Shown: one piece after another, positions 11,241-62,363 of the stretch
Position numbering within the stretch: position 1 is the stretch's first letter
How the letters are laid out: each line of letters starts with the position of its first letter
Source of the DNA: Labia minor
Lineage: Eukaryota > Arthropoda > Insecta > Dermaptera > Spongiphoridae
Direction: 5' to 3'
Length of the DNA: 64,000 nt
Assembly: GCA_963082975.1 (NCBI GenBank)
Contig: OY720350.1
Coordinates: 248,001 to 312,000 of the forward strand
The notes under the pieces: model-generated
The model's input: the letters and a program-made list of their open reading frames with translations, nothing else
Told to the model about the DNA's origin: nothing
Databases searched by the model: none
Translations under genes and position numbers: made by a program

Positions 11241-11445
11241 TCATTTGATTTTGTTATTTTATTTTCATTGAATATTTTTAAATGTAATGAAATTCAGAAA
11301 AATCTAAAGTTAGAGACTTGAGGCATTTTATAATTAAAATTAACATATTTAACGTTATAAAATTATAGATAAACTAACATGTATATATTATATACACATT
11401 CTCATTAATAGTATTAATTTATAACCCAGCCAGAATAGTCACGAT

Positions 11446-21364: not shown

Positions 21365-21823
21365 CTAACGTGTTAACTGCACCTCCTCCGCCACAGTTCT
21401 AACATTGAGATCTCCATGGATTATCTTATTAGATATGTACCATGGAGCGTTGACCATTGCCCTCAGTGTCTTGTTTTGGAATTTCTGTATTATGGACATA
21501 TTAGTATTGCTCGTTGTTCCCCATAATTGAATACCATATGTCCATATTGGTTTGATCAGCATATTGTATACCAATAGTTTGTTGTCTAAAGTCATTTTAG
21601 ATTTGCGTCCTATCAGCCAGTATAGTTTGTGTAGTTTTAATTGTAATTGTTTTTTTTTTGTCCGTATGTGAATTTCCCAAGTCAGTCTTCTGTCTAAGTG
21701 CATACCCAAGTATTTTACTGTCTTTTTAATTGGGATTTTTTTGTCGAGTTCAACAGCCGGGCAGGTCGCTTTATTTAGTGTAAATGTCACGTGTGCTGAC
21801 TTTTCTTCATTAGCTACGATTCT
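21365..21823 (-). pseudogene. jockey-like LINE ORF2 C-terminal part
   Basis: Continues the RT frame directly after the TGA (RIVANEEKSAH, then TFTLNKATCPAVELD) through KTVKYLGMHLDRRLTW, the conserved post-RT block, and IWTYGIQLWGT, to a stop at 21365. The 153 or so codons remain open. The part downstream of the stop codon is therefore otherwise well preserved. Confidence 0.88.
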
Positions 21824-23029: not shown

Positions 23030-23785
23030 TTAAATGTTTTATGTTAGGGGGAATCTTGTGTTTGTACTCTCTCTGAAAGTAAGTCGGTGTGCAGTCTGTA
23101 GCAGTTTTGCAAATGAGCTTAGTGAGATTTTGAATTGCCTTGTCAATATCCTGTTTATTTTTAAGTGGAATGTCTAGTGATATGTTTTTACTTAATGTCT
23201 CTGTGAATAAAGTCCAGTTTCAAAAGATAATATTAATAATAATATTGTCCGTGAGATCTATATTCGTCCTCGAAATGTCTTACATTTACATTTACATTTG
23301 CATTTATCAAAATATATATCAAAAGAGAATATTCAAAAAAAAAAAAAAAAAAAAAAAAAAACCTAACATGATAAATTATACCATCTATTTTTTAAATTAA
23401 TAATAATTATTATCTTTGCAATGAATGGCTACTTTTGAAATTATATTTTTTCTAAATTGGATTAAAATTAAAAATCACTCCTTTCCTAAACAAGACAATT
23501 CAAATATAGAAATATTTTTTAAAAAGTTTCCTGTGTGCTTATTAGAACATTTTATGTCGAATTTAGAATTTAGAATTAAAATTAAAATTAAAATTAATAC
23601 AGTCATCTTATTATTATTATTATTAATATTCATTCTAATTTAAAAGAAGCAATCCGTACTCAACCTGAAACAAAACAATGAATACAAAATTATTCTTCTT
23701 ATTCTATAATAGTTATAATTCCTATTAATAATAATAAAATAATAATAATTGTTTTCTTGTACCTTATATTGATTGGCATTAGGAT

Positions 23786-26640: not shown

Positions 26641-26799
26641 TGTGTGTGTTGAATGTCATAACATAAAATATTTAATATCTATTAATTATATAATAATAAT
26701 AATATAAGGTTTATTAATATAATATTAGGTAATATTAATAATATATTGAGCCTTTAAATATTTGGAAAGCATTTTTGGAAATCAAACAACTTACTTTTT

Positions 26800-27438
26800 A
26801 CCGACCGACGATAGTAAGGGAGGTATTGTTTTCACACCAAATTTCACATGTGGAGATTTTTACATATCTCCACGAATCATGCATTTTCCTAACAGAAAAA
26901 AGTATTTTTAGCATGATGTCTGTCCGTCCGTCTGTCCGTCTGTCCGTCCGTATAGATGTGTACAGCCTGAACGGCTTAACGGATTTTGATGAAATTTGGT
27001 ATATTTACTTAATGCATCAGTGGGATGAATTGATCAACTTTTGGTGCAAATCGGGAAACCGGAAGTGGTAGTATTAGCGATCGACGATAAGAAGGGAAGG
27101 GTTATTTTCGCACCAAATTTCACATAAGGAGATTTTTTTACATATCACCACGAATGTATTGGTTTTATCCTCGGGAAAAATCATCTTCATTATGTTTTTC
27201 TTAATTTAAAATTATATGACGTCACCCAGCCCTTCATGGCGTCACAGCCTCGGGTAACGCCGGCAACGCCGACTACTTCAGCTATATATTATAAATAAAA
27301 TAAAATTAAAAATATTTATGTTATATCCATATCTGTTTTTACATTAATAGATATATAAAATTATTTGAAATTGTTTCTGTAGCTAGAAATTAATTTATTT
27401 CAAACCGTCGGTCGGTTCGGACCTGGCCACAGGTCAAC
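26800..27438 (+). mobile_element. ACCGACCGACG-family non-autonomous DNA element, copy 1
   Basis: ACCGACCGACG at 26800-26810 is matched exactly in inverted orientation at 27406-27416, with GGACCTGGCCACAGGTCAAC just outside the right end. Inside are a short GTCC/GTCT repeat (26927-26951), one copy of the roughly 140-bp unit triplicated at 50.1 kb, and a TGACGTCA-type segment with hairpin-forming GCCGGCAACGCCG. No transposase frame. Confidence 0.75.
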
Positions 27439-28379
27439 TTATTATTTGTTTGATGACATCTTTTTTGTTTTGTTTTGTTTTTTTTGTTAATATTATATTA
27501 TAGATAATATAATTCAAATTAATTTCTTACAAATGATAAATTATTTTTTATTTTGTCATAAATCTTGTCCACATTATTTATGGCATTTACCTGACTTATG
27601 CTAGATTATTTATCATTAAATTGCAATGCATAAACATTATACAAAAATTTTATTTTTACTTATCTTCTAATATCTAATATATATTTTGTTATCTTGAGTG
27701 TTTTACAAATTTATATTTTTATTTTATTGATGAAAGTTCTTCAAGAAAATAGAAAACAGTAAATTCATTATTAGAAAATAAAAAATATTTGAATTTGATG
27801 ATATTAAAAATTAGATTTTTCAATTGAAACAAAAAAAAAAACAAAAACAAAAACAAATTAAAAATATCTTAACAATATCGATTCCAAAAAAGAAATATTA
27901 CCTGTAATTGTTTCAAATGTTTGATTTTTCAAATATATTTTCTATTTGTTATAATCATCATCTTTTGAATTATATCAATAAAATCAATAGATAAAAACTT
28001 GATAATAATTGTAGTTACTTGTACTCAAAATTTTTCCGGTATTATTTTAATATTAATTAATAAATTATATTGATATTTTTTTATTAATAAACTTAAATGA
28101 ACGAATATTTTAATCATGATTTTCAAAGTAGAAGTAATAGTAAAAGTAATCTATATTATAAATATGAAAATATAGTACAGTTTATAATTTTATATTACAC
28201 TGCAGCGACTTTATTGTGAATATTCAATGGCAGGCAGTTTATAAGAATTATTTTCTTATAAATTGATCCAATCCACTCCCAATTGGATGTAGGTACACCT
28301 GGAATAAAGAGAATTTTAGTCTAACATCTAATTAATGTATAATAAAAGAAAAGATAAAAAGCGAAAAGAATAATAAATA
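27439..28379. other. AT-rich stretch, no gene
   Basis: No coding, RNA or shared-repeat signal was recognised. Confidence 0.4.
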
Positions 28380-37994: not shown

Positions 37995-39164
37995 TATTTA
38001 TCCTAAAAAAACTTTCAAAAATTTAACAAAGTTCTGAAAGAGAAAAAATAATATAATTAAAAAAAAATTTTTACTATTTTTAGAATTTTCCCCAAAAAAA
38101 TGAAAAAAAATCATATTTTTTCAATGACAATGCCTGATTTCCAATAAAATTATTAAAATAATGTAAACATCTTAAATTGAATCTTAATTAGAATCCAAAA
38201 TGGAATAAATTAATATTTAATAACTAAATAAATCCCTCGTATTCGTAATCCAATTCATGGATATTTATGGAAATTCTAAATTTTCAATTTTCTTCTAAAA
38301 TCACGAGTTAGTTCTGCTATTAAACGATGTCAAACAAATATTTAAAAAAACAGCTGGTTCCTAATTTGGAATTTATTTTAAAAACTTGTAATCATTACGA
38401 ACATAGATATACTTTTTAAACTTTTTTTTTTTTTTTCATTTTTATATATTGAAAAGGATAAAAAATAAAAAATAACATTCCTATAGATATATTACTTATA
38501 GTCCGGATTGTATTGTAAATTTATAATAATAAAATTGTTATATTTTCATATTTAGTATTTAGTTAAATAGCGAGTATTCATCCCATTCATGAGAGCAATT
38601 GTTTTCAGGGAGCTGAAAAGAATCGGATGATATAAGTACGACATCGAGTTCGGCCATCGGCTGGCTGCGAGTTGGCTCCCCATTTAAAACTTCGAGGTCA
38701 GTATCTATATTTATCTAGTAGTATATTATAAAATAATTTTAGTAATTTATTCAAAAAAATCAATCTTATGTATGGTTTTGTTTTGTTTTGTTTTGTTACA
38801 TGTAACATCATTTGTCCTGGCGATAATTTGGTTCATCTTCAACTTGGAAAATTGTTTTTCTACCCTCGACTTGATTAACAGCCCACCAAATGTGAGAATT
38901 CAACACCTTTACTTTTTATGGCATAAATAGTAAATAGTTAGATTTTTGATATTTGAATTAATAAGGGCAAAATTGATATAATTTTTGTTATTACATTTCA
39001 ATATTTAAAAAAAAAAATAAAAATTATTTTTTTAATTTTTTATTCAATTAAATAAAGTAATTTTTATTTCAATTTTAAATAGTATGTAAAAAAAATGTAA
39101 TAAATATTTTAGTAGACTACTAGTTTAGGAAATTTAAGGTGTTTTATTAACATTTTTTATTAAA

Positions 39165-39527
39165 TAAAACCCCTTTTAGAGTATTTGACATTTAGTGAGT
39201 GGGTGGAGTGGGATATGTGCCATAAATATGTTATGATTGCATGTGTATTGTGCATGAATTGTTTCCCAAGTCGTCTATTGATGACAATACCCTGGTTTGT
39301 GTACAGTTATGTGTATCTCTTAGGCTGGTTTTGATGTGGCTCTATGATTCTCGATCAGACATTTGAGAAGGTAGTACAACAATGTTCCTTAATGGGAATA
39401 TCCCGAAGGATGTATTGGACTGCCTTTGAAGCTAGGGTTAACTTTCTTTCATGGATGACCCGCCCATTATGGCGGGGCCTATGAATCCCCGGTTAGGTAG
39501 GATGTTTTCTCTTACAGGTTGCCTCAA
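39165..39527 (+). ncRNA. structured hairpin region of unit A
   Basis: Aligns with 44225-44640. Hairpins occur at matching places: an AAGGTGTT stem, a TCGTC/GATGA stem, a TTCCTT...AAGGAT stem enclosing GGGA/TCCC, and CCCGCC-CATTAT-GGCGGG at about 39458-39475. The last is TCCTCC-CACTAT-GGAGGA in unit B, with two paired substitutions that keep the stem. The segment ends at a TCTCTTACAG acceptor. Confidence 0.4.
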
Positions 39528-41142
39528 ATGTGGTGTTCAGACATAATCCAAAAATTCAAAACCACTCTCAGCTGATCCACAGAAACTCACAAACACCTCC
39601 CCAATTAATCTATTTTTTCTTTTCCCAATTTTTTTTTTTTCTTCTTCTTCTTCTTCTTCTTCTTTTAAGCGTCGCATTCCCTCGAACAATAAAATACATT
39701 TTAGACCATACTGTGTCTAACCGCGTTTCGGTAGTGCTTTATATTTTTTTTTGTTTTTTTTTTTTTTTTTTTTGTTTTTATCGATTCCGCGATCGCGATC
39801 TTTTCTAGCAAGGAGAGCGTCTCGTGAAGATAGAAGATCGAAAAAATTGTTAGATGGCCATCTGAGCCATAGAATTAGGTCTGGGATAGCATGGATTGAT
39901 TAGGGAAGACATCATTGCGTAACCAAGCAGTCTCCACGGTTAGTATTTTCATTGTATAGTTTACATACATTCTTAAAACGTTAACGAGTCTCATTAATAC
40001 ATATAATACATTTAGTCAACTATATAATAATTTATGAAGATTTCTTTTTCTTTTCATATTTTGAAGAGCATCATAAAGAGAAACGGGTGGTTGGTTTTTG
40101 TGGGGGCAGAGATTCAACGCAACTCTTCATAATGACGGCGAGGCGTCTCAACGGTGAATTGAAATTTTATTTCTATAATATTTCATGAAATAATTTCAAT
40201 ATGTTTGAAAATAATTAAAATTTCAGAATTTTTAAATGAAATCACAAAACTAATTATGAATCTATTATTTCTTGTTTTTAGATCCTACATTGAATGGAAT
40301 GGAGCGAGCATACCATTTCATCTACATAATAGGAAGGGGAAGGCTACTAAAAAGGAAAATAAAAAATGGGTAAGAGTTTTATTTATTTTTTCTACTATTT
40401 AAATAATTAATATTGAAATATTATTTTAAATTTTAAAATATCACCTACAAGAACGCTTACTGTCCAAAATTTTATGTATAATCAATCCTATTCCTATGAT
40501 ATCCTATGATATCCTCCAACTTCTATTAAATAATATTCCATATAAATATTCATTGAATTAAATTTCAAATATTAATGATGCTATTTACTATAGAAAAGAT
40601 ATAAAGATAGAAGACTTATTAAATAAAAACATTCTTTGTCTATTCTTCTTCTTTTTCTTCTTCAAGTATTATTTTTTAAGTTTAACAAAGGCTTTAATTA
40701 ATTTTTAATATATATCACGATATGTTTTATCTATCACCATCAGATTGATGTTGTTCGTACCCGTGGATGATGATGTTGTCTTGACTCTACTCTCTGGTCA
40801 CTAAGAAATGATGATGATGGAAGAAGCTAATAAGAATAAGCAAGCGCATGCACAAACGGTGAATAGAATACAATATGAATACAATATCATTTCAAAATAT
40901 CAAATCCAGATATATGTATACAATGATTAATTTCTTGTATAGATATTTTTCCTGATATTTTTACATTGATGAATTTCTAATGATACTACACGCGTATATT
41001 AAACTAATAAGTGAAATGTTTTGTTAATTTTTTTAGTCTTACTTGATGCACACCAGTGGAGAATCAAGAGAGAAGGAGATTGTGAAGAACAAACATAATG
41101 ACTTCCAGAACATCATCAGCATCATCCATCGGGCGATTGCAA

Positions 41143-41166
41143 GGGGGGGGGGGGGTGAAACCCCTC
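41143..41166 (+). repeat. 13-G run with adjoining GGGG-TGAAA-CCCC hairpin (unit A)
   Basis: Thirteen G followed by TGAAACCCCTCC, just before a GTAAGT donor. Unit B has nine G at the same place (46294-46302). A G-rich hairpin or quadruplex in RNA is possible. Confidence 0.6.
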
Positions 41167-41437
41167 CGTAAGTATTTTTTTAAGAAATATTTTAATATTA
41201 TTCTAATCTATTTTCAATCTTAATAAAATATGTCTTTCATGTAACCTCGATCAATGTTGATGGCCATCTTTCACTTCACTTCACGGTTTTATCAAAAAGA
41301 TGAGTAGATTTCCAATAAATGAATTATTCCAGAAAAACATTATTTCATATGAGTCTTTGTTTTCCAGGGCTTGAAGACGATGATTCTGTTGAAGAGTTGA
41401 AGAGCGGACTCCATTACCTACGATTAATCAATCCATT

Positions 41438-42982
41438 GTAAGTATTGTATTTGTTTATGGAATTTAAAAAATGTCTAGTTTCTATCTTTAATGATTGATT
41501 TTAATTAAAAAAGAAAAAAATAGGAATATTATTTGGAATGAGTGTTGTCCAAATTATAGAGGTATATTAAATATATATCACTCGTACTATATAATAAAAA
41601 ATGAAAAGTCAACTCTTGTCAACTTTCTTTTAAATATATAGATTCTAGGATATCTATTTCTATAGGGGATTATTGAATTCAAATTAATATGTAATATGTA
41701 ATATGTAATATGTAATACAATGTGGAATAGATTTCGTTCGTTAAAGGTATTCGTTATTTATTAGAATGATGAAGTTGGAAAAAATATTTCGAAGCTCGAA
41801 AGCCCGCCCCTTTTAGTTAGACATTCGAGACTACGAATAAATATTTGTATATATATATATATATATATATTCCCCTATATATATAGGGATATATATATAT
41901 CTAGGTACCTCATGAACACTCTCTCAATCAATTTATATCAACTTATTTCAATTTTAACCATTTTAACTATTGAATTAATTTGTATGTATATTAATTAAAA
42001 ACAAATCAATCAAATCGGATCCATTAGTATAGAAAATATTTCAATTCAATCGAATTTATACGATTAAATTTAATTTAAAGTTTAGCGAGATTTCTAAGAG
42101 ATAGGTAACTATTTTCTTTTAAATAATAATTAGACAAATTTCGAATCAAGATGCATTTGTTTTATTTTGTCTTGTCATGAAATCATATCTGGTATCATTT
42201 TATTAAATCAATTCAAATGGGAACTATTAGAATAAAATAAAGGATATTTGATTAATTGTCAGAAATGAAACTAAATATTGATATATTTTAAAAATTCTGA
42301 GAATTACTAGAATTATTATTTATTAATTTAATATAAATTATTGAACGAGTTCTGACTTGTTCATAGTGAGTCTTGATATCCATGGATGAGGTGAGGGTCG
42401 TGCATTACATAAATCATGATTTTTTTCTGCTTTGATAGAAAATAAAAAAAATTAAATTATAAATTGTATAGATAATTGGTAATAAAATAAGAATTCTTGT
42501 GGTGAAATTAAAATATAAATATTATAAGAAAAATCAAATTCTATTCAAACAGAATTCTCCTGAACAATTGACGAAAAATTTTAAAAACATATTGAATTTT
42601 TCATTTCACATGATTCAACTTATAAAATAAGGTAGTATTTATAAATAAAATTCAATTTTATTTATTTTAAATAGAAAAACATTTATTTAAATTTCGAAAT
42701 AGACGACAAATAATAGATTTTTTAATACTAGTACGATAAAATAGATATCTATATATATAAAAAATAATATTCGTTGATTAAAAACATTATTAAAAATTTC
42801 GATTAGTTTGAAATCTATCTATCTCTAATATTAATTACTATAAATAATTTTTTTTTTATTTTAAATTGTTTTATTTGTATAGAATAGAAGCCCAAATTTG
42901 GTATATAATGAAATTGGAGCAATTAATCATCTTGTTCTATAAATTTGAACAACTTTTTTCTATAACATATCTTCTATTCTAG
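41438..42982. other. spacer between the two non-coding units
   Basis: AT-rich. Contains tandem AATATGT repeats (about 41684-41715), an (AT)n tract with a TCCCCTATATATATAGGGA palindrome near 41869-41890, and a short piece (CCGCCCCTTTTAGTTAGACAT, about 41803-41824) of the GC hairpin module repeat. No gene was recognised. Confidence 0.4.
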
Positions 42983-43876
42983 TGTCTGGGGCTACGATAT
43001 TGTGCTTAGTAATATTAAAAGTGAATAAAAGTAAGAAAATATATAATTAAGTATTATTATTATTGATATTTATTTGGCAAAAAAATTGATTTATGCATTT
43101 AAAATACTATATTGATATTATTATACGAGTTAAGTTATTTAAATAATTTTTCCTTTTTTTTTTTTTTTTTTTAGATTGTTATGGTTTGATGGTGGTCTCT
43201 TTCGGCTGTGCATCGTAGGGATTTTTCTGATATGTATAGAAAAAGGAATCACATCTGATCAGAGGTAAAGTTGATATATCGACAAACTATTAAATTAAAA
43301 ATTATAATTACATATTCAATTAATGTAAAAATAATTAATAATGTGAAAAAAAGAGTAAGTATTTAATAATTTAAATATTTTCAATTTCTCTATTAGTTCA
43401 TCTGTAAGTACGTGCATTCACGAATTAAATTTGGACAAAATGGACCACTATTATATGTATATGGAGATGGTGAGATGGTGAGAAAGAAGTACGAGTTCTA
43501 CGAGATCGTCGAGTGACTTACTACGAGTGGGCAACCTATTTATAACTCCGAGGTTAGTACTTTTTGTAAAAAAAAAAAAAAAATGTATTATATTTTGAAT
43601 ACTCAATCTTAAATATGTCTTTTGTTTTTCTTTTGTTTTTTCATGTATCATCATCCTTTTGCTGATGGCAAATTCAATTCTCTTCGAATAATATTGGTTT
43701 CTTCAAAATTTTTTATAAATACAGCTCACCAAAAATAAGTACTCAACGCATATTTTTTTATTATTCTGGCACTAGTGGTAGTAATGAATTTAATTTAATA
43801 TTGACAAAATTTAAATATTACAATAAAAAATACAATATTTCTATTATTTTTTGTTAAATTTAACATTGTTCGTCAA

Positions 43877-43896
43877 TTAGTTAGTTAGTTAGTTAG
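43877..43896. repeat. (GTTA)5 microsatellite
   Basis: Five GTTA units inside unit B, absent from unit A. Confidence 0.8.
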
Positions 43897-44224
43897 ATTA
43901 AAGATTTTCAGAGGCTACCCTTAAAAACAGAAAGAATTGGAAGAGAGAAGGATAAGGATGGCAAATCTACAATCTACTGAATCATCAATTCCTTTAAAGG
44001 TATTTAGAATTGTTAGCCTGAGAGGTTGCGTATGGGGGGTGATTATACATTATTTTGACTTAATCGTTTGTTGTTAGGGATTTACAGATAAAGGAATGCT
44101 TCAAGAAAGTGCCTTCTGATTCATCGCGTCCAAACCTTTGTGGTAGCCTATAAATATAGATAGAAACTAGAAACATTAAATTTGATGAATTATTAATATT
44201 TTAGAATAGAATAGAAAAAAGGTG

Positions 44225-44640
44225 TTGGGTTGTTGCATGCTTCTAACTATTAAAGGAAACACCTTGTTAGTATTTCGTCTTTAGTATTTAGTGGGTGGAG
44301 ACGGGTATGTGCCAGAAAATATTAAGGGATTGTTTATCTGCATGTGTTTTTTGCTTCCCAAATCGTCATTTTTTTTATTTTTTAATGACGATTCCCTTGT
44401 TTGTGTAAAGTAATGTGTATCACTGAGGGTGGCTCGGACGTGGCTCTATGGTATTGGACAGGCATTCGTGAAGGTAGTTCAACAATGTTCCTTAATGGGA
44501 TTAGCCCGCCAGGATGTATTGGCTACCTTGTAGCTAGGAATAGTCTCTTTTTTTATGAGTGTTCCTCCCACTATGGAGGACGCCATGAATCCCCATTAGT
44601 AGTAGGTAGGTAGGATGTTTTCTCTTACAGGTTGCCACGA
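44225..44640 (+). ncRNA. structured hairpin region of unit B
   Basis: Counterpart of 39165-39527. AAGGTGTT/AACACCTT (8 bp), AATCGTCATT/AATGACGATT (10 bp, perfect) and TCCTCC-CACTAT-GGAGGA (about 44562-44579) are visible. A 70-codon frame at 44401-44613 spans it, but the aligned frame in unit A has several stops, so a protein is unlikely. Confidence 0.4.
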
Positions 44641-46894
44641 ATGTGGTGTTCAATCGTAATCCAAAAACTCAAAGTCACTCTCAGCTGATCCACAGATACT
44701 CACAAACGACTTCCCACTTAATCTATGCTTTTCATTTTCTTTTTTTTTTCCTTCTTCTTCTAAATTACGCATTTCTTCCGTAGTTAAAACATAAAATAGA
44801 CCATACAGTGTCTAATAAGCGCGTTCGGGAGTGTTTTTTTTTTTTTTTTTTTCCGTTTCCGTGATTGCAATCTTTTCTAGCAAGAAGAGTGTTTTGCACG
44901 AAGATAGAAAATATTATTAGATGGCCATCCGTGCCATAGAATTGGGTTTGGGATAGGATAGACTGTGTACAGGGAAGACATCAGGGTGCAATGAAGTAGC
45001 CTCCACGGTAGGTTATATGTATATTTCAATTCAATTTATGTCTTCTTTCCTGTGACGTTATTCTCTCCTATCCTAGTCAACTCAAACTAATGATCTTTTT
45101 TTCTATTTCTTATTTATTTTCATTGTCTGAAGAGCATCATTTGAAGAACTTGGTTTGGTGGTTTGTTGGGGCCAGATCAGATCACATCGCATCTCTTCAC
45201 AACGACTGCGAGGCATCTCATCGGTGAATTAAATTTTTATTTCTATAATATTTCATGAAATAATTTCAATATGTTTTAAAATAATTAAAATTTCATAATT
45301 TTTAAATGACGCTTGTTTATTAGAACTAAAATTTTTGTGTCAGTAATACTTATTAATTATTCCTTGATTTTTCTAATATACAATATAGAAGGAGAATACA
45401 CTGGATATATAAATAATATATTCAAGTAAATATTTCGAAATCACAAAAATAATTATGAATCTATTTCTTGTTTTTAGATCCTACATTGAATGGAATGGAG
45501 CGAGCATACCATTTCATCTACCTAATAGGAAGGAAGGTTATTAAAAAGGAAAATAAAAAAACAATGGTCAATCAAGAGGTAATAATATTATTTATGTTTT
45601 CTACTATTTAAATAATTAATATTGAAAAATTATTTTAAATTTTAAAATATTATCTACAAGTACTCTTACTGTGTCCAAAATTTCATTAAATTATTAATGT
45701 ATAATCAATCCTATTCCTATGATAGATATCCTCCAACTTCTATTAAATACTATTCAATATAAATATCCATTGAATTAAATTTCAAATATTAATTAATGAT
45801 GATATATTATAGAAATTTCTAAAAAGAATAAGATATAAAATAAAGACTTATTAAATAAAAACATTCTTGGACTATTCTTTTATTTCTTCAAGTATTATTT
45901 TTTAAGTTTAACAAAGGCTTTAATTAATTTTTAATATATCACCATATGTTTTATCTATCACCATCAGATTGATGTTGTTCGTACCCGTGGATGATGCTGT
46001 CTTGACTCTACTCTCTGGTCACTAAGAAATGATGATGATGGAAGAAGCTAATAAGAATAAGCAAGCGCATGCACAAACGGTGAGTAGAATTATGAACACA
46101 ATAGAATTTCAAAATAATCCAGATATTTTAACATTGATGAATTTATAAAGATACTACACGCGTATATTAAATTACTAAGTGAAATGTTTTGTTAATTTTT
46201 TAGTCTTCCTTGATGTGCATCATTGCAGAATCAAGAGAGAGATTGAAGAACATAATGACTTCCAGATCATCATCATCCATCGGGCGATTGCAAGGGGGGG
46301 GGTGAAACCCCTCCGTAAGTATTTTTTTAAGAAATATTTTAATATTATTATAATCTATTTTCAATCTTAATAAAATATGTCTTTTATTCTTCTTCTTTTT
46401 CATGTATCATCGATCAATGTTGATGGCCATCTTTCACTTCACTTCACGGTTTCATCAACAAGGTGAGTAGATTTCCAATATGAATTATTCCAGGAAAACA
46501 TTATTTCATATTAGTCTTTGTTTTCCAGGGATTGAAGACGATGATTCTGTTGAAGAGTTAGAGGACTCCATTACCTACCATTAATCAATCCATTGTAAGT
46601 ATTGTATATGTATTTATATATTTTATTTTTTTATGTTATATAGTATATTATAGATGATAACATATACGCGTAGTATATATCAAGATATTTGAATTTCATC
46701 ATAATTTAGAAATTAGATTTCGGTTAGTTCTTGCTTGAGAGATTATTATCAATTCTTTTGATTTATTCATGTATTTCTCCTTTAATAGAATAATAATTAT
46801 TTTTAATATTAAATCAGTTTAACTATAATTTATTTAATGCTATATATATATATATATATATACTTAATGAATAATATTTTAAAATAAAACATTT

Positions 46895-46965
46895 AAATGT
46901 AGTGAACACTAATCGCAATAGATGGCGGGATATGTATTAAATCAGGATAATATTTTTTCAAAAGT
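46895..46965. mobile_element. fragment of the 16-kb foldback MITE family
   Basis: GCAATAGATGGCGGG followed by ATGTATTAAAT parallels the inverted half of the element at 16066-16473. Degraded. Confidence 0.45.
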
Positions 46966-47104
46966 ATATAAAATTGATATAATTAATATTCATATTTCTT
47001 AATGATGATAGTTATGAAAAACTAGAGTAAATAATTATTTTTCAAATAATAACACTTTTGCTGTCCTTTATTTTATATTAAACACTCTTATTCGAATATA
47101 TTTT

Positions 47105-48345
47105 ATTTAAAAAAATCTCCTGAAATTCTTCTCAAGATACACAACAAAATTTTAAAAATAACTCAGTGAATTTTTCATTTCAAATAGCTTATAGAAAGAT
47201 TATGCTTTAAATTAGATTAAATATAAAGAGAATCACATTTATTTGAACTTTGAGATATGCTACTAATAATGTAAATTGTAAATTTAGAGAAAGAAGATAA
47301 TTAATTTTAAATATAGTTATTTTACGATTAGAGTAAAATGCAAAAATTTCGGTTAATTTTAAATTTTATTCAATGAATATCTATATATTTGATTCTATAC
47401 AATTTAAGCCCGATATTACTTACAAAAGTTTAAATAAGCCTATTTTGATGATGGTGACATTTATTTGTAAGGATTTGTATGAATTACAAATTTGTAAATA
47501 AAAGAAAAGACAATAAGTATTTATTTTACTTACAAATATTATGTTTTTAAATTCAATAGAATATTTGAATTTGAGTTAAAATACGTGCTGTAATTAACTA
47601 TATTTATGACTTTCGTTGGGAAGATTTTACAAAGTTGGAGCCCCTTTTAGTTAGACATCCAACGCCTTCGGCGCTCTTCACACCTAGACGGGGGGAGCCG
47701 AGTGGTTCATAGTATTTGGTGGTTGAAAGTAGTAAAAGGTTTTCATCCATTTTGTTTCAATCAGTATATTACATAAAACATTCATTTCTTTTTGTGTTCT
47801 TATTTAAAATATATATTTTAATCAGTAAATTAATTATATATATTATTATTACTATTGTATATGTTATATCTATCTATTTATATGGCTCAAAGATACTCGA
47901 AAGTTCTTGGCCGCAACAACCACATTTCTCCAAGTGACCCTATCCTGAGCCACATCCATCCAACTCCTACCCTCTCCCATCTCAATTACGTCCCTTCCTA
48001 CGGGTCCTTGGTTTACCAAGCGGACGTTTTCCAATCGGTCTCCCCACCAATATCTTTTTTCCTCTCCCATTCAAACTACGTGCCCTGCCTATCGCAGCTT
48101 TTTCCCTTTTATAACCCTAACTATTTCTGAAGATGCATTGAGATCATGCAATTCCTCGTTATGCAGTCTCCGCCATTCCCCGGTGTCCTCATCTTTCTTT
48201 GGCCCATAAATGCTGGGAAGAATCCTATTCTCAAATACTCTGAATCTACTCTCATCTCCCAGGGTCATAGACCATGCCACCCACCCATATGATACAACAG
48301 GCAAAATAATTGTTTTATATATTTTAATTTTGATTCTCTTTGATA
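47105..48345. repeat. 1.2-kb direct repeat, copy 2
   Basis: Nearly identical to 11446-12662 in the same orientation, about 35.7 kb away. It lacks part of the GC hairpin module (about 47690) but has the fuller LINE tail. See copy 1 for composition. Confidence 0.8.
47865..48345 (-). mobile_element. LINE 3' end (C-terminal domain), 5'-truncated
   Basis: Minus-strand translation gives VVSYGWVAWSMTLGDESRF, RVFENRILPSIYGPKKDEDT, EWRRLHNEELHDL, then in another frame SWMDVAQDRVTWRNVVVAAK. This is the conserved C-terminal region found after the RT in many animal LINEs. The copy ends in a GATA-type tail at about 47865-47880. At least one frameshift separates the two parts. Confidence 0.82.
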
Positions 48346-48349
48346 ATTT

Positions 48350-48749: not shown

Positions 48750-49770
48750 ACATTATAAATAATGTGATCTTGAGGCAATTGGGAGCGGATAGGAAATATA
48801 TTCAGGTAGGTTAGGATGGGCTTAGTTGAAGATATGGGATTGTTGAAGAGAATTAAATAAATTGTTTATATAAAAAAACAAAAATTTATAATAAAATTAA
48901 TTAACATATATGTAACAATAAATATAGATTAATTTAAGACTTTGTCATTCCTAAATTGGTTCTTTTTTTAAATTGAATAAATATAAATTTTCTTTTGCAA
49001 GTTTTTAATTATTTTAGCTGAGTACAATTATTCTATTTTATTTAAAAATTATATTTACATTAGATCAAATTGTTTTACTCAATTATATCTTAATCCAATA
49101 GTAAAGATACTAAAGATTGCCTGAATTTAAGAATTTTTTGCGAAATAGAAGTCTATAATATCAATTTTATTTAAAATCAATATTATAAATTAATAATATA
49201 AAAATCAATTAAAATTGTATTTCTTTTGATATTATTTGAAAAATTATGAAGAGAATTTGTGTATCACATTCCATTTAAAAAGAAAAATTTTAATCTTAAT
49301 TCAATTTTAATAATAGAAAAATTATTTCAAAAAATCTAAATTAAAATTTTTGATAGAAAAATCGATTAAAAAAATGAAGATAAAATATGAAAAAGTTAAT
49401 TTTATTTATTTTTATATTATTGTTTAAAAATTATTACGCGATTATTTATATTTTTATATCATAATAAATATATATACATAATTATTTAATTTAATCAAAT
49501 TGATGAAGTATAATTTCCAAATCTTCATACTGTAAAAAAAATTTCAAAATTAATATAATAAATTATATTTTTGTTACAATGTTACTATTAATTATTAAAA
49601 GTTTATTTGTTAAAATTTTAAATTTAAATGAAAGTTTGATAGTCACCTAGTTTTCTAAAGATTTTTCTAAAAGAAGAATATTTAAGAATTAATTAAATTA
49701 CAACATTATTATAAAATATAAAAAAATATTTGAAAATAATCTTTAGTAAAATAATTAATTTAATTAATAA
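48750..49770. other. AT-rich stretch, no gene
   Basis: No coding, RNA or shared-repeat signal was recognised. Confidence 0.4.
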
Positions 49771-50680
49771 GTTGACCTGTGGCCAGGTCCGAACCGACCG
49801 ACGGTTTGAAGTAAATTAATTTCCAGCTACAGAAACAATTTCAAATAATTTTAATATATCTATTAATGTAATAAAAAACAGATATGGATAAAACATAAAT
49901 ATTTTTAATTTTATTTTATTTATAATATATAGCTGAAGTAGCCGGCGTTACCCGAGGCTGTGACGTCATGAAGGGCTGGGTGACGTCATATAATTTTAAA
50001 TTAAGAAAAACATAATGAAGATGATTTTTCCCGAGGATAAAACCAATACATTCGTGGTGATATGTAAAAAAATCTCCTTATGTGAAATTTGGTGCGAAAA
50101 TAACCCTTCCCTTCCTATCGTCGATCGCTAATACTACCACTTCCGGTTTCCGGATTTGTACCAAAAGTTGATCAATTCATCCCACTGATGCATTAAGTAA
50201 ATATACCAAATTTCATCAAAATCGGTTGAGCCGTTCAGGCTGTACACATCTATACGGACGGACGGAAGGACGGACGGACCACTTCCGGTTTCCGGATTTG
50301 CACCAAAAGTTGATCAATTCATCCCACTGATGCATTAAGTAAATATACCAAATTTCATCAAAATCGGTTGAGCCGTTCAGGCTGTACACATCTATACGGA
50401 CGGACGGACGGACGGACCACTTCCGGTTTCCGGATTTGCACCAAAAGTTGATCAATTCATCCCACTGATGCATTAAGTAAATATACCAAATTTCATCAAA
50501 ATCGGTTGAGCCGTTCAGGCTGTACACATCTATACGGACGGACGGACGGACAGACATCATGCTAAAAATACTTTTTTCTGTTAAGAAAATGCATGATTCG
50601 TGGAGATATGTAAAAATCTCCACATGTGAAATTTGGTGTGAAAACAATACCTCCCTTACTATCGTCGGTCGTTAAAAATT
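49771..50680 (-). mobile_element. ACCGACCGACG-family DNA element, copy 2, with internal triplication
   Basis: Inverted copy of the element at 26800-27438. ACCGACCGACG at 49793-49803 pairs with CGTCGGTCGTT at 50663-50673 (one mismatch). It contains three tandem copies of the internal 138-142-bp unit where copy 1 has one. The 143-codon frame across the triplication only reflects the repeat. Confidence 0.8.
50137..50555. repeat. three tandem 138-142-bp units
   Basis: Units start at CCACTTCCGG, at 50137, 50279 and 50417. They are nearly identical. The 4-bp length difference reflects one more or one fewer GACG in the short GACG run at each unit end, so slippage or unequal exchange at that run is the likely origin. 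Confidence 0.9.
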
Positions 50681-50994: not shown

Positions 50995-53900
50995 TTAATG
51001 ATTTACCGTTTGTTGCTTTTCAAATTGTTCAGTCGTAAGATTATTAAGGATCTCTAGAAAACGTTGTCGTAATGTGTGATTATCAATTTTATCTAATTCC
51101 GTTTCATGATGTTGTCTAGTTTTAGTTAATGTAATAAGCTCTTGGTTGAGCATTTGCATTCTTTCCATTACTTCTTCTTTAGTAATTGTATTCTCCATGA
51201 AATTTCCCTTTTCTTCTTTGTTGGACGTATCAAATGATAATGGTGAATTTGGTTCCGATTTTATCTATGAAAAAATTTAATATTTTACTTATATATTTAA
51301 ATAATCATATTTATTTAAATTTATTATAAACTATTAACCATTATTATATAAAAATATACATTTGAGTAGTAAATTCAGTTTTTATGATGTTGGTTAATGA
51401 AATTTGAATATCGTCGTTTTGGCCTCTATTTTGGCACCATTTTCAATTTTTGAAATTTGAGATTCAGGTCCAGTATCCAAAAATTTGGAATTAACTAAAC
51501 ATCATAAACAAAACATTATGATATAATTTAACTACCTTTAAATTAAACGTAACGGTAGTAGATTTGATTAATTTCTATCAAAAAGAGGCACAGTGATAAT
51601 ATAAATATAATATATATGTACCTATATACATAATAATTAGTTATGGCGAATAGAGATTTGTTGTATGCTACAATCCTACAATACTATGCATTCATCAAAA
51701 GAATAATAATAAATCAACTAAAATTAAATAAATTTATTTCAAAAAGTCAAGTTTCAGTTTCAAGAAAAAACCTTCATAAAAATTAACTGTTTCCAAAATA
51801 GACCATTATTGCTTAATAATTGACACCTCAATTATCAAGTACTTATTACTTAAAAAAAAAATGAAAATTATTTGCTAGAGCTTAATTAAGTTTGACAAAT
51901 GAAATCAAATTCTGATATTGAGTAGATGTTTATTGTTTTGCTTATTTGTTTCAGTTGACTGATATAGAACATAAAAATCGTAAGCAAATATATTGGGCGG
52001 AGCAGCCAATGATTTTTTTTTTTATTTGATTCACTAAGGGAAGCTTTGATTTATTCAAGAAAACCACCCGACTAAAATTATACTAAGTGGAGTAATTGAA
52101 AAACTAAATTTATATTAATAGGTGATCGATGTTGAGAAAAATCATAGTACGTTGCATTATATAAATTAATATTATAGATTATGAGATGTAAATAAACATC
52201 ATTCATTAAAAAAGTCATCCAACAAGCGCGCAAGGTTGATAAATTCAAGAGTAATGGAAACTTTAAAAATATTGACCCTAATATTATATGTTCTATTAGT
52301 AATACGAGTGGTGGAGATTAATTAATAATTATTTAAAATATAATACTTTTTAAATTAATTATAAATTATAAATAGCAAATAAATCTTTTGATCCAAGTAA
52401 TAAAAATTAACTTTTTCATAGTCATCATCAAATATGAATTGACTCTTTTTGAATCTTAATATCTTTATTAAATCCAATTAAATAAATTTTTATTTAAATT
52501 TTTTTTTATCAAGTTACCTTTTTTAAGTCTTATTCAATTCCAATGAGTTGTATTGATTGGAAAGGTTGTCTCAACAAACAGCACGAGATATTTTTGAATG
52601 CAATCTAAAAATCATGTTGCTTATATCTTTAAAGAGAGATATAACATTATTATAAATAACCAAAAAATTCTAAATAGAAAATAATTTATTAATATTCAAT
52701 CAACTGCCTATATATTTATATTTAGCGTAGATAAATTTTATAAATGCAATATTTTTCTTCCGAATCCCTTAACAATAACAAGAAAAAATGATTTGGAATG
52801 ATTAAATAGAATTTGAGAATATCTTCATAGATAAAAAATTTATTTGTCACAACTTACAAGAAAGATCCAATAATAAAATAATAAACTACGAAAGTATATT
52901 GAATCATAAATGTAGAAAATTTTAAAAGAGGAAAGCAATTTTTTTCAATAATATTCGAATTATACATAAATAAATCATTTCTATAAACATGCAACTTTAA
53001 TATTGGATTATTCAAACTTTTAATTAACTGCATTAAATAACGGTATCACATACCTTAAAATTGTAACTTGCTATCTGGAATTAAGTTTTAATTAATGAAG
53101 AATTTCTAAAATTTCACTCTGGATGTACGAAGATCATAATAGCTCTTCAATATTTTTAAACTTGATTCATTCATAGGCTGTTTGATTTTAAAGATTAACT
53201 TGAAAAGTAATCTTATTTATCATATACAATGTAAAAAAAATATTAAAAAATAAATATATAAATCAAATAGTAAAATGTTAAACTTTTCGTTTTTTTTTTT
53301 ACAAAGATTGAAATAATTTAATTTCAATAGATTTGAATTTTTTAAAAACACCTTATTACTTATAACATACATGAAACCAACAAAGGTGATGTATAATTTA
53401 TATAATTATATTATATATTAAAAAATGGTCAACAGGAGGTAAAAGATTTTTTAAAATTAAGCAACATGACACGTTTTTTTAAAAGAAAAAAAACTGCTGT
53501 TAGCTATTTACAACCATTCTAATCCCTTCTCTCAATGGAAAAATAAAATGAAAATTAGTAATTATTTTCTATATCATGAATATTAATAATAGTCGTTAAT
53601 TGTAAAAAAAAAAAAAAATTATTTTTCTATTTAGGCTTTTTACCTGAGGATCATCTTCTTTTCTTTTTTCAACTTTTTTTGGATTTCTTGTTTTTCTCCT
53701 AGTAGGTTTGACTTCAACAATTTTAACATCTTTAATCTATATTAAATTATAGAAACAACGAAAATTTTTATTCTATGATTAAACTTATAGATAAATATTA
53801 TTTTTAATATTCTAATATAATTTGAAGAGAATTTTCAATTTTTTTTTCAAGTGAATATTTGAAAAATTACCTGATTAGTTTCTTCTTCCATCGATGATTC

Positions 53901-54581
53901 AAAATTGTCTGAATCCAATCGTTTTTCACGAAAAGAGGATGTATCAGATGAAGTTTCATCATAAGACATTTGATCTATTATGTTTCCATCATATGGCATA
54001 TGTTCTAAAATATTTAATTTTTTTCTTTGTCTATATACACGATTTTTTAAAGCTTTGATTGCTCTACGTGCTTGTGCTGCTTCATCACTCTCTTGTTGTT
54101 TACGTCTTTGATAATAATCCCTATTACTTTGAGCTTTGGCAGCTCGTCGGTGGTCAGCCTCTTCTTGAGTTTCCAGTTGTTTCTTTCTTTGTCGATAGTT
54201 TCGTAAATACTCAGCTTGAGCAGCAAGACGCTCTTTGGCTTCATCAGGAGTTTCTGTTTGCTTTCGCTTTATTCGATAAGCCCGATCTCGAGCTGCTTGT
54301 TTAGCACGACGTTCACTCAGTTCCTCCGAGGTTTCTAATAATTTTCGCCTTTGTACATAAGCGCGTTGTCTTTGAGCTGCTACAGCACGACGCTCTTTGG
54401 CCTCTTCTGGTGATTCTTGAAGATTCCGCCATTCACGAAGTTCTCTTCTACGTTGTGCTCTAGCCTCTAGTCGCGTTTTAGTTTGTTCAGGCGTTTCTCT
54501 TTCTTTCTGCATTTTTCGATAATTCCGCCAATATTCTAAACGGTTTGCTCTTTTTACTTCAGGATCTAATTTTTGATCCAT
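50995..54581 (-). CDS. STPR-like basic repeat protein, probable DNA-binding factor, 3 coding exons
   Basis: Exons 54581-53871 (237 codons), 53736-53644 (31) and 51264-50995 (89 plus TAA) join in phase 0 with consensus GT...AG sites, giving 357 aa. Residues 8 to about 189 are seven consecutive basic/acidic repeats with a period of exactly 27 residues (starts near 8, 35, 62, 89, 116, 143, 170), each with an E-T-P/S-E-E-A-like acidic turn, R-R-A or R-L-A, and an A-Y-R-x-R-K-like basic patch. This resembles the STPR domain of silkworm FMBP-1, a DNA-binding tandem repeat, but that repeat is 23 residues long. Exon 2 adds a very basic stretch (PTRRKTRNPKKVEKRK, NLS-like), and exon 3 ends in a predicted coiled coil (MLNQELITLTKTRQHHETEL). 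A nuclear DNA-binding role is inferred from family resemblance. Intron 2 is 2.4 kb. The name is left open because no specific orthologue was recognised. Confidence 0.8.
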
Positions 54582-54699
54582 TATTTGTTTTATTATATAT
54601 ATATATATATAAATCTTGAAAAACTATTTACAACCTAAAACAGAAAAATAAAAACTAAAAAAAAAAAATTATATTCTTATTATAGATTGTCATTCCGGA

Positions 54700-56215: not shown

Positions 56216-56949
56216 CTCTCTTTCTTACACATACACACCCACACCTAGACTTGATCAGCTATCTCTCTCTTTCACTCTATTTAGTCTTATTAAATTGAAA
56301 TTAACATATTAAAACGAAATATAATTTATTTCTATGATAACATATTTTCAAGACAATATTATCTGTTATCTATGATTTTCAACAAAATTAATATTTGATA
56401 ATTAATTAATATTAAATAATATATTTATATATTAATCTTGAAATAATTTTAATAAAAATGTTGGTGTCCATATTAATTTTTGTAGTAAAATCTTTTGACG
56501 CACAGGTCATGTGTAAAGTTTCAGAGAGGGAGGAAGAGGGAAGGAGAGAGAATGAGTGGGAGATGGAGGGGAGTTTCATATTTAAAGTACTAGATTTGAA
56601 AATATTAAATGCTCCAATTTTAAATTATTTATTTAAATTTAATTTTTTGAAAAATAAGGGGGGAAATTTTAATTTGAGTATAAAAAGTAAAGATCAATTT
56701 ATTCAAAGCTATATATTTTTTATATCTAAGAATTCAAAGAGGATGGATTACTAAAAAAAATATCAGGAAGCCACAATGTTATAAATTCATTTTTAAAAGA
56801 TCAAGTATACGAATGTAACATTCACAGACTAAATTTAGACAAAAAAGAAAATCTATCGATAAAAATTAATTAAATTTCATCTCTCTAATTTTGTTAATTA
56901 TATTTTTATATTATAATTATAATACAATATTTCAATTTCAATTATTTTT
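56216..56949. other. region upstream of the STPR gene, no gene
   Basis: Contains a pyrimidine-rich stretch at 56210-56280. A 98-codon frame on the plus strand (56458-56754) looks like chance, with AT-driven composition and no domain. Confidence 0.4.
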
Positions 56950-57416
56950 ACCGACCGACGATAGTAAGGGAGGTATTGTTTTCACACCAAATTTCACATG
57001 TGGAGATTTTTACATATCTCCACGAATCATGCATTTTCTTAACAGAAAAAAGTATTTTTAGCATGATGTCTGTCCGTATAGATGTGTACAGCCTGAACGT
57101 CTGAACTGATTTTGATGAAATTTGGTATATTTACTTAATGCATCAGTGGGATGAATTGCTCAACTTTTGGTGCAAATCCGGAAACCGGAAGGGGTAGTAT
57201 TAGCGATCGACGATAGGAAGGGAAGGGTTATTTTCACACCAAATTTCACATGAGGAGATTTTTACCGACCGACGATAGTAAGGGAGGTATTGTTTTATAT
57301 ATCACCACGAATCATGCACTTTGTATTGGTTTTATCCTCGGGAAAATCATATTTATTAGTTTTTTCTTGATTTAAAATTATATGACGTCATCCAGCCATT
57401 CATGACGTCACAGCCT
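56950..57416 (+). mobile_element. ACCGACCGACG-family DNA element, copy 3, partial
   Basis: Begins ACCGACCGACGATAGTAAGG like copy 1 and follows it to the TGACGTCACAGCC segment, then breaks off. A second ACCGACCGACG start recurs internally at 57264, so the terminal 30 bp or so is duplicated inside the copy. Confidence 0.75.
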
Positions 57417-58780: not shown

Positions 58781-59540
58781 TTATAAATAAAATAAAATTA
58801 AAAATGTTTATATTTATTATTTATGTATGCCTATCTGTTTTTTATTACATTAGATTTTAATTTTGAAAGTAATTAAGATTATATTTTATAGCATTAAAAT
58901 TAATGATGAATTCTTATTAATCAGTTGTAGTGCCAATGAAGAGGGGTTTTTTCCCACTCAAATCCTTTTTATCCTTTTTTATATATTTATATATATATAT
59001 GTCCCCGAGAGAAATGAAACAAAACAATAACCTTTTTTTATGAAGACAATATGAATACAATATCCTATATACATTTATAAAACCTTATATTAATAAAAAT
59101 TATTTATTTATGAATATAATATAATAATTATTATTCAATAATAACATTTACCTTTTTTTTTTATTAACTTCCAATTAAATACATTAATTTCACATCTGCC
59201 TTATTTGAGGCAATAGAAGAACATTTACAGGTTAAAACTCAATATATACATAAAATATATACAATAAGAAATAGAGGAGTATTATGAGGGGAGGATCAAG
59301 AAAGAAAGATATTAATGGGAGGGAGGGGGATAGGACTAGACAGGATTAAGATAGGAAAATAGATGTTGAGGATATTATGAGGACAAGTAGAGAAGATGGA
59401 GCGATTGCCTTGAATCAAACCGTCGGCCCATTAGTCGAAGGAGAATTGAGTCTGTCGTGTATCAAGTCGTTAGACTTCTGGTCAGTAAGTTGACTCGCTT
59501 TGTCGTTAACATGGTTTGTAGTCTGTTGAGGTAGCGTATG

Positions 59541-59966
59541 CTAACGTGTTAACTGCACCTCCTCCGCCACAGTTCTAACATTGAGATCTCCATGGATTAT
59601 CTTATTAGATATGTACCATGGAGCGTTGACCATTGTCCTCAGTGTCTTGTTTTGGAATTTCTGTATTATGGACATATTAGTATTGCTCGTTGTTCCCCAT
59701 AATTGAATACCATATGTCCATATTGGTCTGATCAACATATTGTATACCAATAGTTTGTTGTCTAGAGTCATTTTAGATTTGCGTCCTATCAGCCAATATA
59801 GTTTGTGTAGTTTTAATTGTAATTGTTTTTTTTTTGTCGGTATGTGAATTTCCCAAGTCAGTCTTCTGTCTAAGCGCATACCCAAGTATTTCACTGTCTT
59901 TTTAATTGGGATTTTTTTGTCGAGTTCAACAGCCGGGCAGGTCGCTTTATTTAGTGTAAATGTCAT
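59541..59966 (-). pseudogene. jockey-like ORF2 C-terminal part (copy 2)
   Basis: 141 codons nearly identical to 21365-21790 (KTVKYLGMRLDRRLTW, IWTYGIQLWGT). The same in-frame TGA as in copy 1 precedes it. Confidence 0.85.
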
Positions 59967-60011
59967 GTGTGCTGACTTTTCTTCATTAGCTACGATTCTT
60001 CATTTGTGAAG

Positions 60012-60826
60012 TCACAATTTAATTAGATTTAGATTTTGTTGGAGAATCGCAGACGCAGTTGTTGGGTTCGCGTGTGAGGCAAGTACAGCAGTGTCGTCGG
60101 CGAAGGTGGCTACAGTCGTTTGTGGTCCAATGGGTAAGTCGTGTGTGTATAGTAGGTATAAAAAAGGTCCCAGGACGCTACCCTGCGGAACCCCAGATCT
60201 AATGGGACAGACGGAGCTACAAGAGTCACCCACCCTCACTCGGAAGGACCTTCCCGAAAGATAGGATCTAATTACTCTGTAATAGATTAAGGGAACCATA
60301 CCCTAAACCTTTAGGAGTAGCCCTTCGTGCCAGACTCTGTCAAAAGCCTGCGAGATATCCAGAAACACAGCCGAGCAGAATCTCCTATTTTCAAGATCGT
60401 CATTAATGACCCTAACGATTCTATGAATCTGCTCAATCGCGTGCCGTGCCCCTCTCTAAAACCAAACTGATGATCAGGGATAGCATTATTGGTGTCAAGA
60501 AAAGGCTTAAGCCTCCTTAACAGCACTCTCTCAAACAGCTTGGACAGAGTCGGCAGCAAACTTATGGGTCTGTAGGAGATTACCTCCTCTGGTGTCTTGC
60601 CAGGCTTCAGAATCATTAAGATGTCTGCGTTTTTCCACTTGTTAGGGAAGTAACCTAATCTGATAATTGAATTGAAAATATAGCTTATCAAAAGAATTGC
60701 CCTATCAGGCAGTTCTTTTATCATTCTACCAGTTATTAGGTCATTTCCTGGAGCCTTTCTTGGTTTAATGGTCTGTCGTATAAACTGTTTAATTTCAGAA
60801 GGTTTTATTTTTTTAAAATTTGTCAT
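60012..60826 (-). pseudogene. jockey-like reverse transcriptase (copy 2), frameshifted
   Basis: Two open pieces: 60826-60311 (APGNDLITGRMIKEL, YRPISLLPTLSKLFE, DHQFGFREGHGT) and 60299-60012 (GVPQGSVLGPFLYLLY, ATFADDTAVLASHA). A 2-nt insertion near 60440 throws the first piece out of frame before motif A. A TAG replaces the AAG of copy 1 just before 60299. Two TGA codons follow in the post-RT W-L-H-K-W motif. All RT landmarks are recognisable but cannot be read as one protein. Confidence 0.88.
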
Positions 60827-61327
60827 AGTATAGTTGTGAGTGTCAAAATTTAGAATTGATTGGAAGTTTTCGTCGGTATTGTCTGTAGGGGGATGTGGAG
60901 TAAAGACATGTATCAGGTGTTTAGCAAAGGGATTCTAGTAATGGGTTTTTTAAGTTTTTTGGTTACCTTCCAAAGAGAGTAGTCAGTATCAATGTCGGGA
61001 GTAAGATTTTTAAGAAAATTCTGGATACCTTGATTTTTATCGATGGCCAGAAGACTCTTAATGTCCTTTGTAAGTTTGTTTAATTGTGTCTTAATTGTTG
61101 GAGCTCTATGAAGTTGCCATTGTCGTCTTAGTGTTTTTTTTTTGTCAATTAAATGTTTTATGTTAGGGGGAATCTTGTGTTTGTACTCTCTGTGAAAGTA
61201 AGTCGGTGTACAGTCTGTAGCAGTTTTGCAAATGAGCTTAGTGAGATTTTGAATTGCCTTGTCAATATCCTGTTTATTTTTGAGTGGAATGTCTGAGTGA
61301 TATGTTTTTACTTAATGTCTCTGTGAA

Positions 61328-62008
61328 TTAAGTCCAGTTAGTACTTCTATTTGTTATGTATATGTCTTTTCTCTTGGGATATATTTGGGAAGGAAAAGTC
61401 ACAAGTATCGGTGAATGATCAGACGAGAGTTCAAGACAGTTCTCCACTTTAGCAAGCCCTGGATCCAGCTTTCTCGTCACAAAAAAGTCGATTATGTCAG
61501 GAATTTTGTTTCTATCTGTTGGCCAGTAAGTAGGGTGTCCTGAAGTCAGTGTTCTAAGTCTTTTTTTGTTGATTGCTTTGAGAAGGCAATTCCCTCTTGC
61601 TGTAATTAGTCTAGAACCCCAGTCTGTGTGTTTTGCATTATAGTCCCCTCCAGCTATAAACCTTTGCCCGAGAGTTTCAAAAAAACCCCCGAACATATCA
61701 TGATTGATTTTATGTTTAGGTGGGCAGTACACAGCTGAGATTGTAATTTGTCCATTTATGTCATTAATTTTAATTGATGTCGATTGTAAATAGTCTTTGT
61801 CAAAATTAGAGTTTTCGTAATGTTTAATACAGTTTTTAACTATAATGGCTGATCCTCCGTGAGAGGTTCCGTCTGGGTGGTTTGTCGTATACAGTGTGTA
61901 ATTGGGGATTTTAAGATAACTTCTTTTGTTGAAGTGTGTTTCTGTTATCAACATTATGTCGATGTCTTTGTCTATTAGGAAGCATTTTAACTCCCCGGAG
62001 TGCCTCAT
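61328..62008 (-). pseudogene. jockey-like APE-type endonuclease domain (copy 2)
   Basis: 226 codons with nearly the full AP-endonuclease-like set: ITETHF (catalytic Glu), GGSAIIVK, YCPP, GGDYNAKHTDWGSR, IPDIIDFFV and SSDHSPI (catalytic His). The N-terminal W-N-x-N-G motif that should precede RHSGELKCF is missing. An upstream MDPSQS looks like the ORF2 start, so about 30 nt between them seem deleted or out of frame. Related to domains that nick target DNA for LINE insertion. Confidence 0.88.
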
Positions 62009-62363
62009 GAGACTGGGAGGGATCCATTAGGGAATCTGGTAATTATGGTGGTTAATAGGTTAAGCATAGTGTCCATGCGTTCCATTAGTTTTGTCAACAT
62101 GTTTTCAAGTCTAGTACTAGTATTGTCGGTACTGGTCATGGGAAGATCATTATTATCATTATGTTTGGAAGCCACTATTTGTGAGTAGAGTTTTGTTTTT
62201 TGTATGGGGGAAGTAGTCTGAGTTGTGTGTGTGTGTGTGTGTGTGGTATTTTGTTTTCAATAGGCTGGTTTACTTTGACGGTCTGTGATTTATCTTGTAC
62301 TTGTTTATGTCTGAGAGAAGGATATTTGGTTTTTAGTAGTTTCCTATAATGTGTTCACAGCCT

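Follow-up and report, generated by a model that had tools for sequence, protein, structure and literature searches.

A window of 64,000 nucleotides from the dermapteran Labia minor (GenBank assembly GCA_963082975.1, contig OY720350.1, here C9, positions 248,001–312,000) carries two copies of a multi-exon unit that appears to belong to an amplified gene family without protein-coding function. The family would have spread by tandem and segmental duplication, is found mostly on one chromosome, C10 (perhaps the X), and partly at the ends of others, and contains a conserved core exon. A probability of roughly 0.6 is given to this reading. The genome comprises 604 Mb in 71 contigs.

Structure of the two units

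Both units lie on the + strand. Six blocks (C to H) edged by AG and GT occur in the same order in copy 1 and copy 2, as seen in the sequence and in the alignment of both. An initial annotation of the window had stated that these blocks are GC-rich and keep six pairs of splice sites while their lengths shift by 3, 4, 13, 3, 20 and 4 nt, and each of these statements is borne out. Every block is preceded by AG and followed by GT in both copies, the lengths are 130/127, 87/91, 88/101, 115/112, 131/111 and 70/66 nt, and the G+C content of the blocks (A and C–H) is 0.45 and 0.43 in the two copies against 0.21 in the introns. An additional upstream block, exon A (38609–38696), has a donor common to both copies, its counterpart in copy 2 ending at 43552. 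At least three of the four variable positions of GTRAGT are matched by 13 of the 14 donors (A and C–H of two copies) versus 11.5% of the 2,852 GT sites in the window; the sites had been chosen beforehand in the initial annotation, and the comparison is a description, not a blind test.

In copy 1 (type 1), the exons were placed by sequence and alignment. Exon A is preceded by the acceptor TTTTCAG and followed by the donor GTCAGT. A conserved block, B', runs into block C (39518–39938, donor GTTAGT), and block C (39809–39938) has an acceptor of its own, TTCTAG. These are followed by exon D (40067–40153, donor GTGAAT), exon E (40282–40369, donor GTAAGA), which lies in the tail where types 1 and 2 are ~90% alike or more, and exon F (40744–40858, donor GTGAAT). 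Exon G (41037–41167) ends in a hairpin of a G-run and a C-run at the donor GTAAGT. Exon H (41368–41437) is also followed by GTAAGT, and this donor makes it an unlikely terminal exon.

Copy 2 (type 2, 42145–47664) recurs piecewise, ~80–90% alike, in the 6.8–7.4 kb units of other arrays. Its exon A (43485–43552, donor GTTAGT) was placed by alignment and has an uncertain start. The block B'+C (44631–45007) follows the acceptor TTACAG, and a second acceptor, TTCTAG, precedes 44881. Block C (44881–45007), exon D (45133–45223), exon E (45478–45578) and exon F (45968–46079) are placed by sequence and alignment. Exon G (46204–46314) again has the hairpin at its end, and exon H (46529–46594) is followed by GTAAGT. 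Similarity between the two copies breaks abruptly at ~40140/45210: downstream the introns are about as alike as the exons, and upstream mainly the blocks are alike.

Coding potential, RNA families and folding

The copies compared were selected manually, with one or two taken from each array or site, and make up two overlapping sets of 17 sequences out of at least 284. The joined exons C–H contain stops in all frames in 17 of 17 aligned copies (exon D was begun two bases early in this alignment). In the second set of 17, the longest stop-to-stop frames are equalled or exceeded by 5–72% of shuffles. Block B' has an open frame of 93 nt in the two window copies, and of the codons that differ nine are non-synonymous and one is synonymous. 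Six translations from two copies gave nothing above the Pfam cut-off; the one Pfam hit listed for it, with E 0.096 over 15 residues, falls below that cut-off and was taken as noise. A protein-coding function of the unit was rejected on these four grounds (frame stops, shuffle-level frame lengths, codon changes in B' and no Pfam match). The unit had initially been proposed to be non-coding while keeping its splice sites, and the stops in all frames, the maintained AG and GT sites and the lack of a Pfam match agree with this.

No match to Rfam 15 reaches the gathering score in the window, and no tRNA was found there. A relaxed Rfam threshold yields six weak matches to microRNA families, and every one of them falls on a single AT repeat (41845–41911). 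Among eight exon alignments, exon G alone stands out, with a consensus fold at z -2.6 relative to column shuffles. The consensus structure pairs bases other than those of the terminal G-run/C-run hairpin, which lies directly before the donor and forms in 16 of 17 single-sequence folds (t1_C4_83 differs). This predicted hairpin could affect use of the adjoining donor.

Two subfamilies and their divergence

The copies compared fall into two types. Type 1 includes window copy 1, the compact arrays of ~3.1–3.5 kb units at C10:23.9, C10:8.0 and C5:7.4 Mb, and the wider-spaced copies at C4:83.5 Mb. Type 2 includes window copy 2 and the remaining loci compared, so that the window site has one copy of each subfamily.

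Divergence between the types was measured as Kimura two-parameter (K2P) distance between five type-1 and twelve type-2 copies. In the head of the unit, K2P is 0.33 for exon A, 0.24 for C and 0.35 for D, versus 0.56 for the A–B intron (with many gaps) and 0.88 for the C–D intron. The head exons are thus ~1.6- to 3.7-fold less diverged than the introns. In the tail, all parts fall between 0.03 and 0.17, and exons G and H exceed the intron between them. The initial annotation had taken equal divergence of blocks and introns as a sign against its reading; divergence is unequal in the 5' half, as that reading predicts, and about equal in the 3' half, where the prediction fails.

Variation within type 2 shows the same contrast for B'+C, a 375-nt core exon (44631–45007) that varies less than the introns do, whether copies of the same subfamily or of different ones are compared. 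The start of B' was taken as 44633 in the analyses of divergence, donors and frames, folding and variation, and the acceptor gives 44631. In the twelve type-2 copies, B'+C has 22 variable sites among 370 and the introns have 327 among 2,181 (Fisher P 5e-7). The contrast is weak in the five type-1 copies (25/387 versus 66/807 in the A–B intron). Evidence for selection is thus limited to the 5' half, mainly B'+C.

A tree of the head splits the two types, and a tree of the tail pairs both window copies. It seems that the two window copies swapped their 3' halves: local exchange between them, by gene conversion or unequal crossing-over, would give the pairing in the tail tree and would help explain the abrupt break in similarity. 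A type-2-like tail is also present in other type-1 copies besides window copy 1.

Copy number and chromosomal distribution

A 32-mer from block B' has 284 places genome-wide at up to three mismatches, compared with none for the reversed control. The initial description of a duplicated long non-coding RNA gene therefore stands for the non-coding character and the kept splice sites, but the two units are not a private pair, and many copies are in tandem. Exact matches to this 32-mer number 220 in the 604 Mb genome. Among the 100 exact matches listed, in order and reaching C10:17.3 Mb, 57 are on C10 and 43 are on six large chromosomes (C1 11, C2 2, C4 9, C5 4, C6 13, C9 4). We place the other 120 further along C10 or on small later contigs, and the share of C10 would be up to 177 of 220. 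The probe has no exact copy among viral contigs. With the 3' part of copy 1 as query, a first look across the genome turned up 330 candidates, 40 of which were scored. A 31-mer of exon E in its C form has 74 places, all 74 on C10; its A, G and T forms together have 32, of which 23 are on C10, six on C1 and one each on C4, C5 and C9.

Seven contigs (C1, C2, C4, C5, C6, C9 and C10) account for 599.2 Mb, and all remaining contigs together for 5.2 Mb. C10 is 76.9 Mb in length, or 12.7% of the genome. Its known sites fall into 21 clusters between 0.5 and 76.8 Mb, compared with 19 clusters on the other six chromosomes (522 Mb), where the counts leave aside one autosomal site (C9:1.15 Mb) and more probes went into the clusters on C10 than into the autosomal ones. 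No more than 0.5 Mb separates seven of the 19 clusters outside C10 from a chromosome end, and the expected number is 0.22. The window copies themselves lie 0.29 Mb into C9. An Ephrin domain is encoded at C10:45.226 Mb, ~20 kb from a type-2 array.

Arrays, flanks and mode of spread

Adjacent units are mostly ~3 to 7.4 kb apart, some wider, and in the same orientation. Seven head-to-tail pairs of units from five arrays are 99.4–100% identical within their arrays, and three pairs from different type-2 arrays are 98.1–98.8% alike. Window copy 2 is more distant, with a ~87–90% match to other loci over its main stretch. No open frame longer than 104 codons is present in the units of three arrays; a fourth stretch examined for frames, the C1 array, contains a long interspersed nuclear element (LINE).

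Sequences flanking the units are shared between sites. The arrays X72, X69, X31 and X45 on C10 have a common sequence in front, which is part of a repeat family found at window 26.8–27.4 kb. Sequence that matches window 34–38 kb accompanies the copies at the ends of C4, C5 and C9. These common flanks indicate that copies moved within larger stretches, and segmental duplication is therefore favoured over transposition. In the window the repeat family occurs at 26787–27447, 49762–50679 and 56939–57296, and it also flanks several arrays of the unit on C10.

A lone type-1 exon A stands at the start of seven of the ten type-2 sites whose upstream edge was covered (X72, X69, X31, X45, C9_59, C5_83 and the array at C10:0.53 Mb); C2_80, C4_86 and C6_37 start without it. 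All seven lone exons keep the acceptor, as TTTTCAG or TTTCCAG. The donor GTCAGT is kept in five of the seven; it reads GTCAGA in X31 and GTAGGT in the 0.53 Mb copy.

A 163-bp segment of the window (38081–38243) has matches repeated several times in a row at C10:8.0 Mb and C4:83.5 Mb (L030 and L031). A 1.2 kb repeat is present at window 11444–12667 and 47098–48347 in copies that are 92% identical. Since the second overlaps the type-2 unit at its 3' end, the first may be what is left of a further unit.

Other features of the window

Exons of a Methyltransf_28 gene, presumably NDUFAF7-like, are located at 813–2989 (+), and frames at 3868–10573 (-) belong to a gene with a terminal GRIP domain; both were identified by Pfam, with further exons added by eye. 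Two LINE copies (21290–23219 and 59469–61339), ~97% identical, contain frames that by eye resemble reverse transcriptase. Adjoining the second are an endonuclease frame recognised by Pfam (61331–62026) and a zinc-knuckle-like frame seen by eye (62367–63242). An open frame of 258 codons at 53850–54623 (-) contains repeated basic motifs and has no Pfam match.

Interpretation and alternatives

If the family is a set of genes, the units would be transcribed and spliced. Transcripts could also continue through an array, with splicing joining one unit to the next, since a strong donor follows exon H, no last exon is evident and the type-1 exon A has an acceptor. The product would be a long RNA of repeated modules in which the B'+C part matters and the D–H part is loosely held. 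Its likeliest role would be that of a multi-copy germline RNA, such as a small-RNA precursor or a party to sex-chromosome conflict; the basis for this suggestion is the clustering on one chromosome together with rapid amplification.

Several observations weigh against such a gene family. Exons D–H of type 2 vary more than the introns (95/430 versus 327/2,181, P 4e-4), and whole exons have been lost from some units. Exons E and F are missing by deletion in C1_114a and L033, with shared breakpoints (window 45354 to 46118), and exon E and part of D in L034; the exon-deleted units are L033, L034 and those at C1:114.7 Mb (L016 and L017). Given this variation and these losses, much of the RNA may be dispensable. 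A conserved overall structure was not found in the C–H exons of eight copies, where folding energy ranges from z -1.5 to +2.5. The borders of the joined exon B'+C were picked after its conservation had been seen, and local gene conversion could also contribute to its lower variation. The head and tail trees were drawn without support values, and the splicing of the units is read from sequence alone.

The most serious alternative, which we regard as possible but rather unlikely, is a passive repeat. Here the units would be the remains of a dead gene caught up in tandem and subtelomeric duplication, much like a satellite with a large unit, and the splice sites would persist as the copies are young. 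The near identity of units within arrays and between them is what such duplication would leave, as are tail exons that evolve no slower than introns and the deletions of exons, and the ends of chromosomes, where seven of the 19 autosomal clusters lie, are a usual spot for it. Against it speak the slower divergence of the head exons between the types, the lower variation of B'+C within type 2, and the same splice sites in types 1 and 2 despite heavy divergence of the introns.

A more specific version of the gene family seems quite doubtful. It would be a previously undescribed class of RNA for chromosome identity, with hundreds of spliced units along the X and at the ends of autosomes whose chain-spliced transcripts mark the X or its chromatin, or feed sex-chromosome small RNAs; the core exon of these RNAs would evolve slowly, and their 3' exons would change fast and be exchangeable.

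That C10 is perhaps the X is suggested by the order of the contigs. Six of the seven large contigs are ordered by size and C10 comes last, out of that order, and by custom sex chromosomes are placed last, out of size order, in many assemblies. Of three genes that we take to be fourth-chromosome genes in Drosophila, Ephrin is on C10 and the other two are elsewhere; with one of three markers of the ancestral X on C10, its identity as the X is not established, and this too counts against the proposed gene family.

A mobile element is improbable. A large, non-autonomous transposon that carries a spliced transcript within it would be consistent with dispersed sites on seven chromosomes, but no protein encoded by an element was found, the units of three arrays containing no frame over 104 codons, and the flanks shared by X72, X69, X31 and X45 and by the ends of C4, C5 and C9 are as in segmental duplication. 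The initial annotation had held the units not to be a transposon, and the short frames, the head-to-tail arrays of near-identical units and the common flanks uphold this. It had also regarded many copies across the genome as the mark of a transposon; such copies exist, at 284 places, but the transposon does not follow from them.

We consider it very unlikely that the units act in the manner of roX, yielding from sites spread over the X an RNA that identifies that chromosome. The 21 clusters on C10 against 19 on the much longer remainder, with probes unevenly pooled, and the confinement of the C form of exon E to C10 would fit, and one of the two sites in the window for GTTNTACG, which we take to be a roX-box-like motif, falls within exon A of copy 2 (43495–43502). 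However, the motif is not enriched (two in the window versus 3.05 expected), autosomal copies exist, the exons have no conserved overall structure, and the assignment of C10 as the X is itself conjectural. Least plausible is a small peptide, for example from a 27-codon stretch of exon E that is open in many type-2 copies, as this frame has stops in X31 and C6_37 and, in each of the window copies, an insertion of 1 nt, and frame lengths are not clearly above those of shuffles (lowest fraction 0.05, copy X69).

If expressed, the amplified family would be a long non-coding RNA family of unusual size and chromosome bias. Its contrast between core exon and 3' exons, together with the exchange between copies, would make it possible to ask where in a non-coding RNA selection acts, and the family would be a possible handle on the sex-chromosome biology of this insect. 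If the units are instead a passive repeat, they are a caution that kept splice sites can reflect shared ancestry. No description of such a family was found in literature searches, which is no proof of absence.

Comparison with known systems

ANTSR is a multi-exon long non-coding RNA of complementary sex determination in aculeate Hymenoptera, and is a single locus between CRELD2 and THUMPD3 (PMC12799146, PMC12594375, PMC12588609). The units described here would resemble it as insect multi-exon non-coding RNAs with little sequence constraint, but differ in having 284 places for one probe instead of one locus. Their recognised neighbours in the window are the Methyltransf_28 gene and the GRIP-domain gene. 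Identity with ANTSR was set aside, as its single-locus character is contradicted by these places. CRELD2 and THUMPD3 were not recognised among the open reading frames of the window, which were read and ten of which were scanned by Pfam; the genome was not searched for them.

Three other systems share single features with the family. The non-coding RNAs roX1 and roX2 of Drosophila are X-linked, as these units would be if C10 is the X. They are, however, two genes and not hundreds of copies, and here there is neither an enriched roX-like motif nor an overall structure. The fem piRNA (PIWI-interacting RNA) precursor of the silkworm is a multi-copy RNA, is W-linked and gives a known piRNA. The units are likewise multi-copy and would be linked to a sex chromosome if C10 is one, but copies are also present on other chromosomes. 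The X-linked 1.688 satellite of Drosophila is, like the arrays on C10, a tandem repeat enriched on one chromosome. Its unit is a few hundred base pairs and unspliced, whereas the units in Labia minor are ~3–7 kb in length and keep their splice sites.

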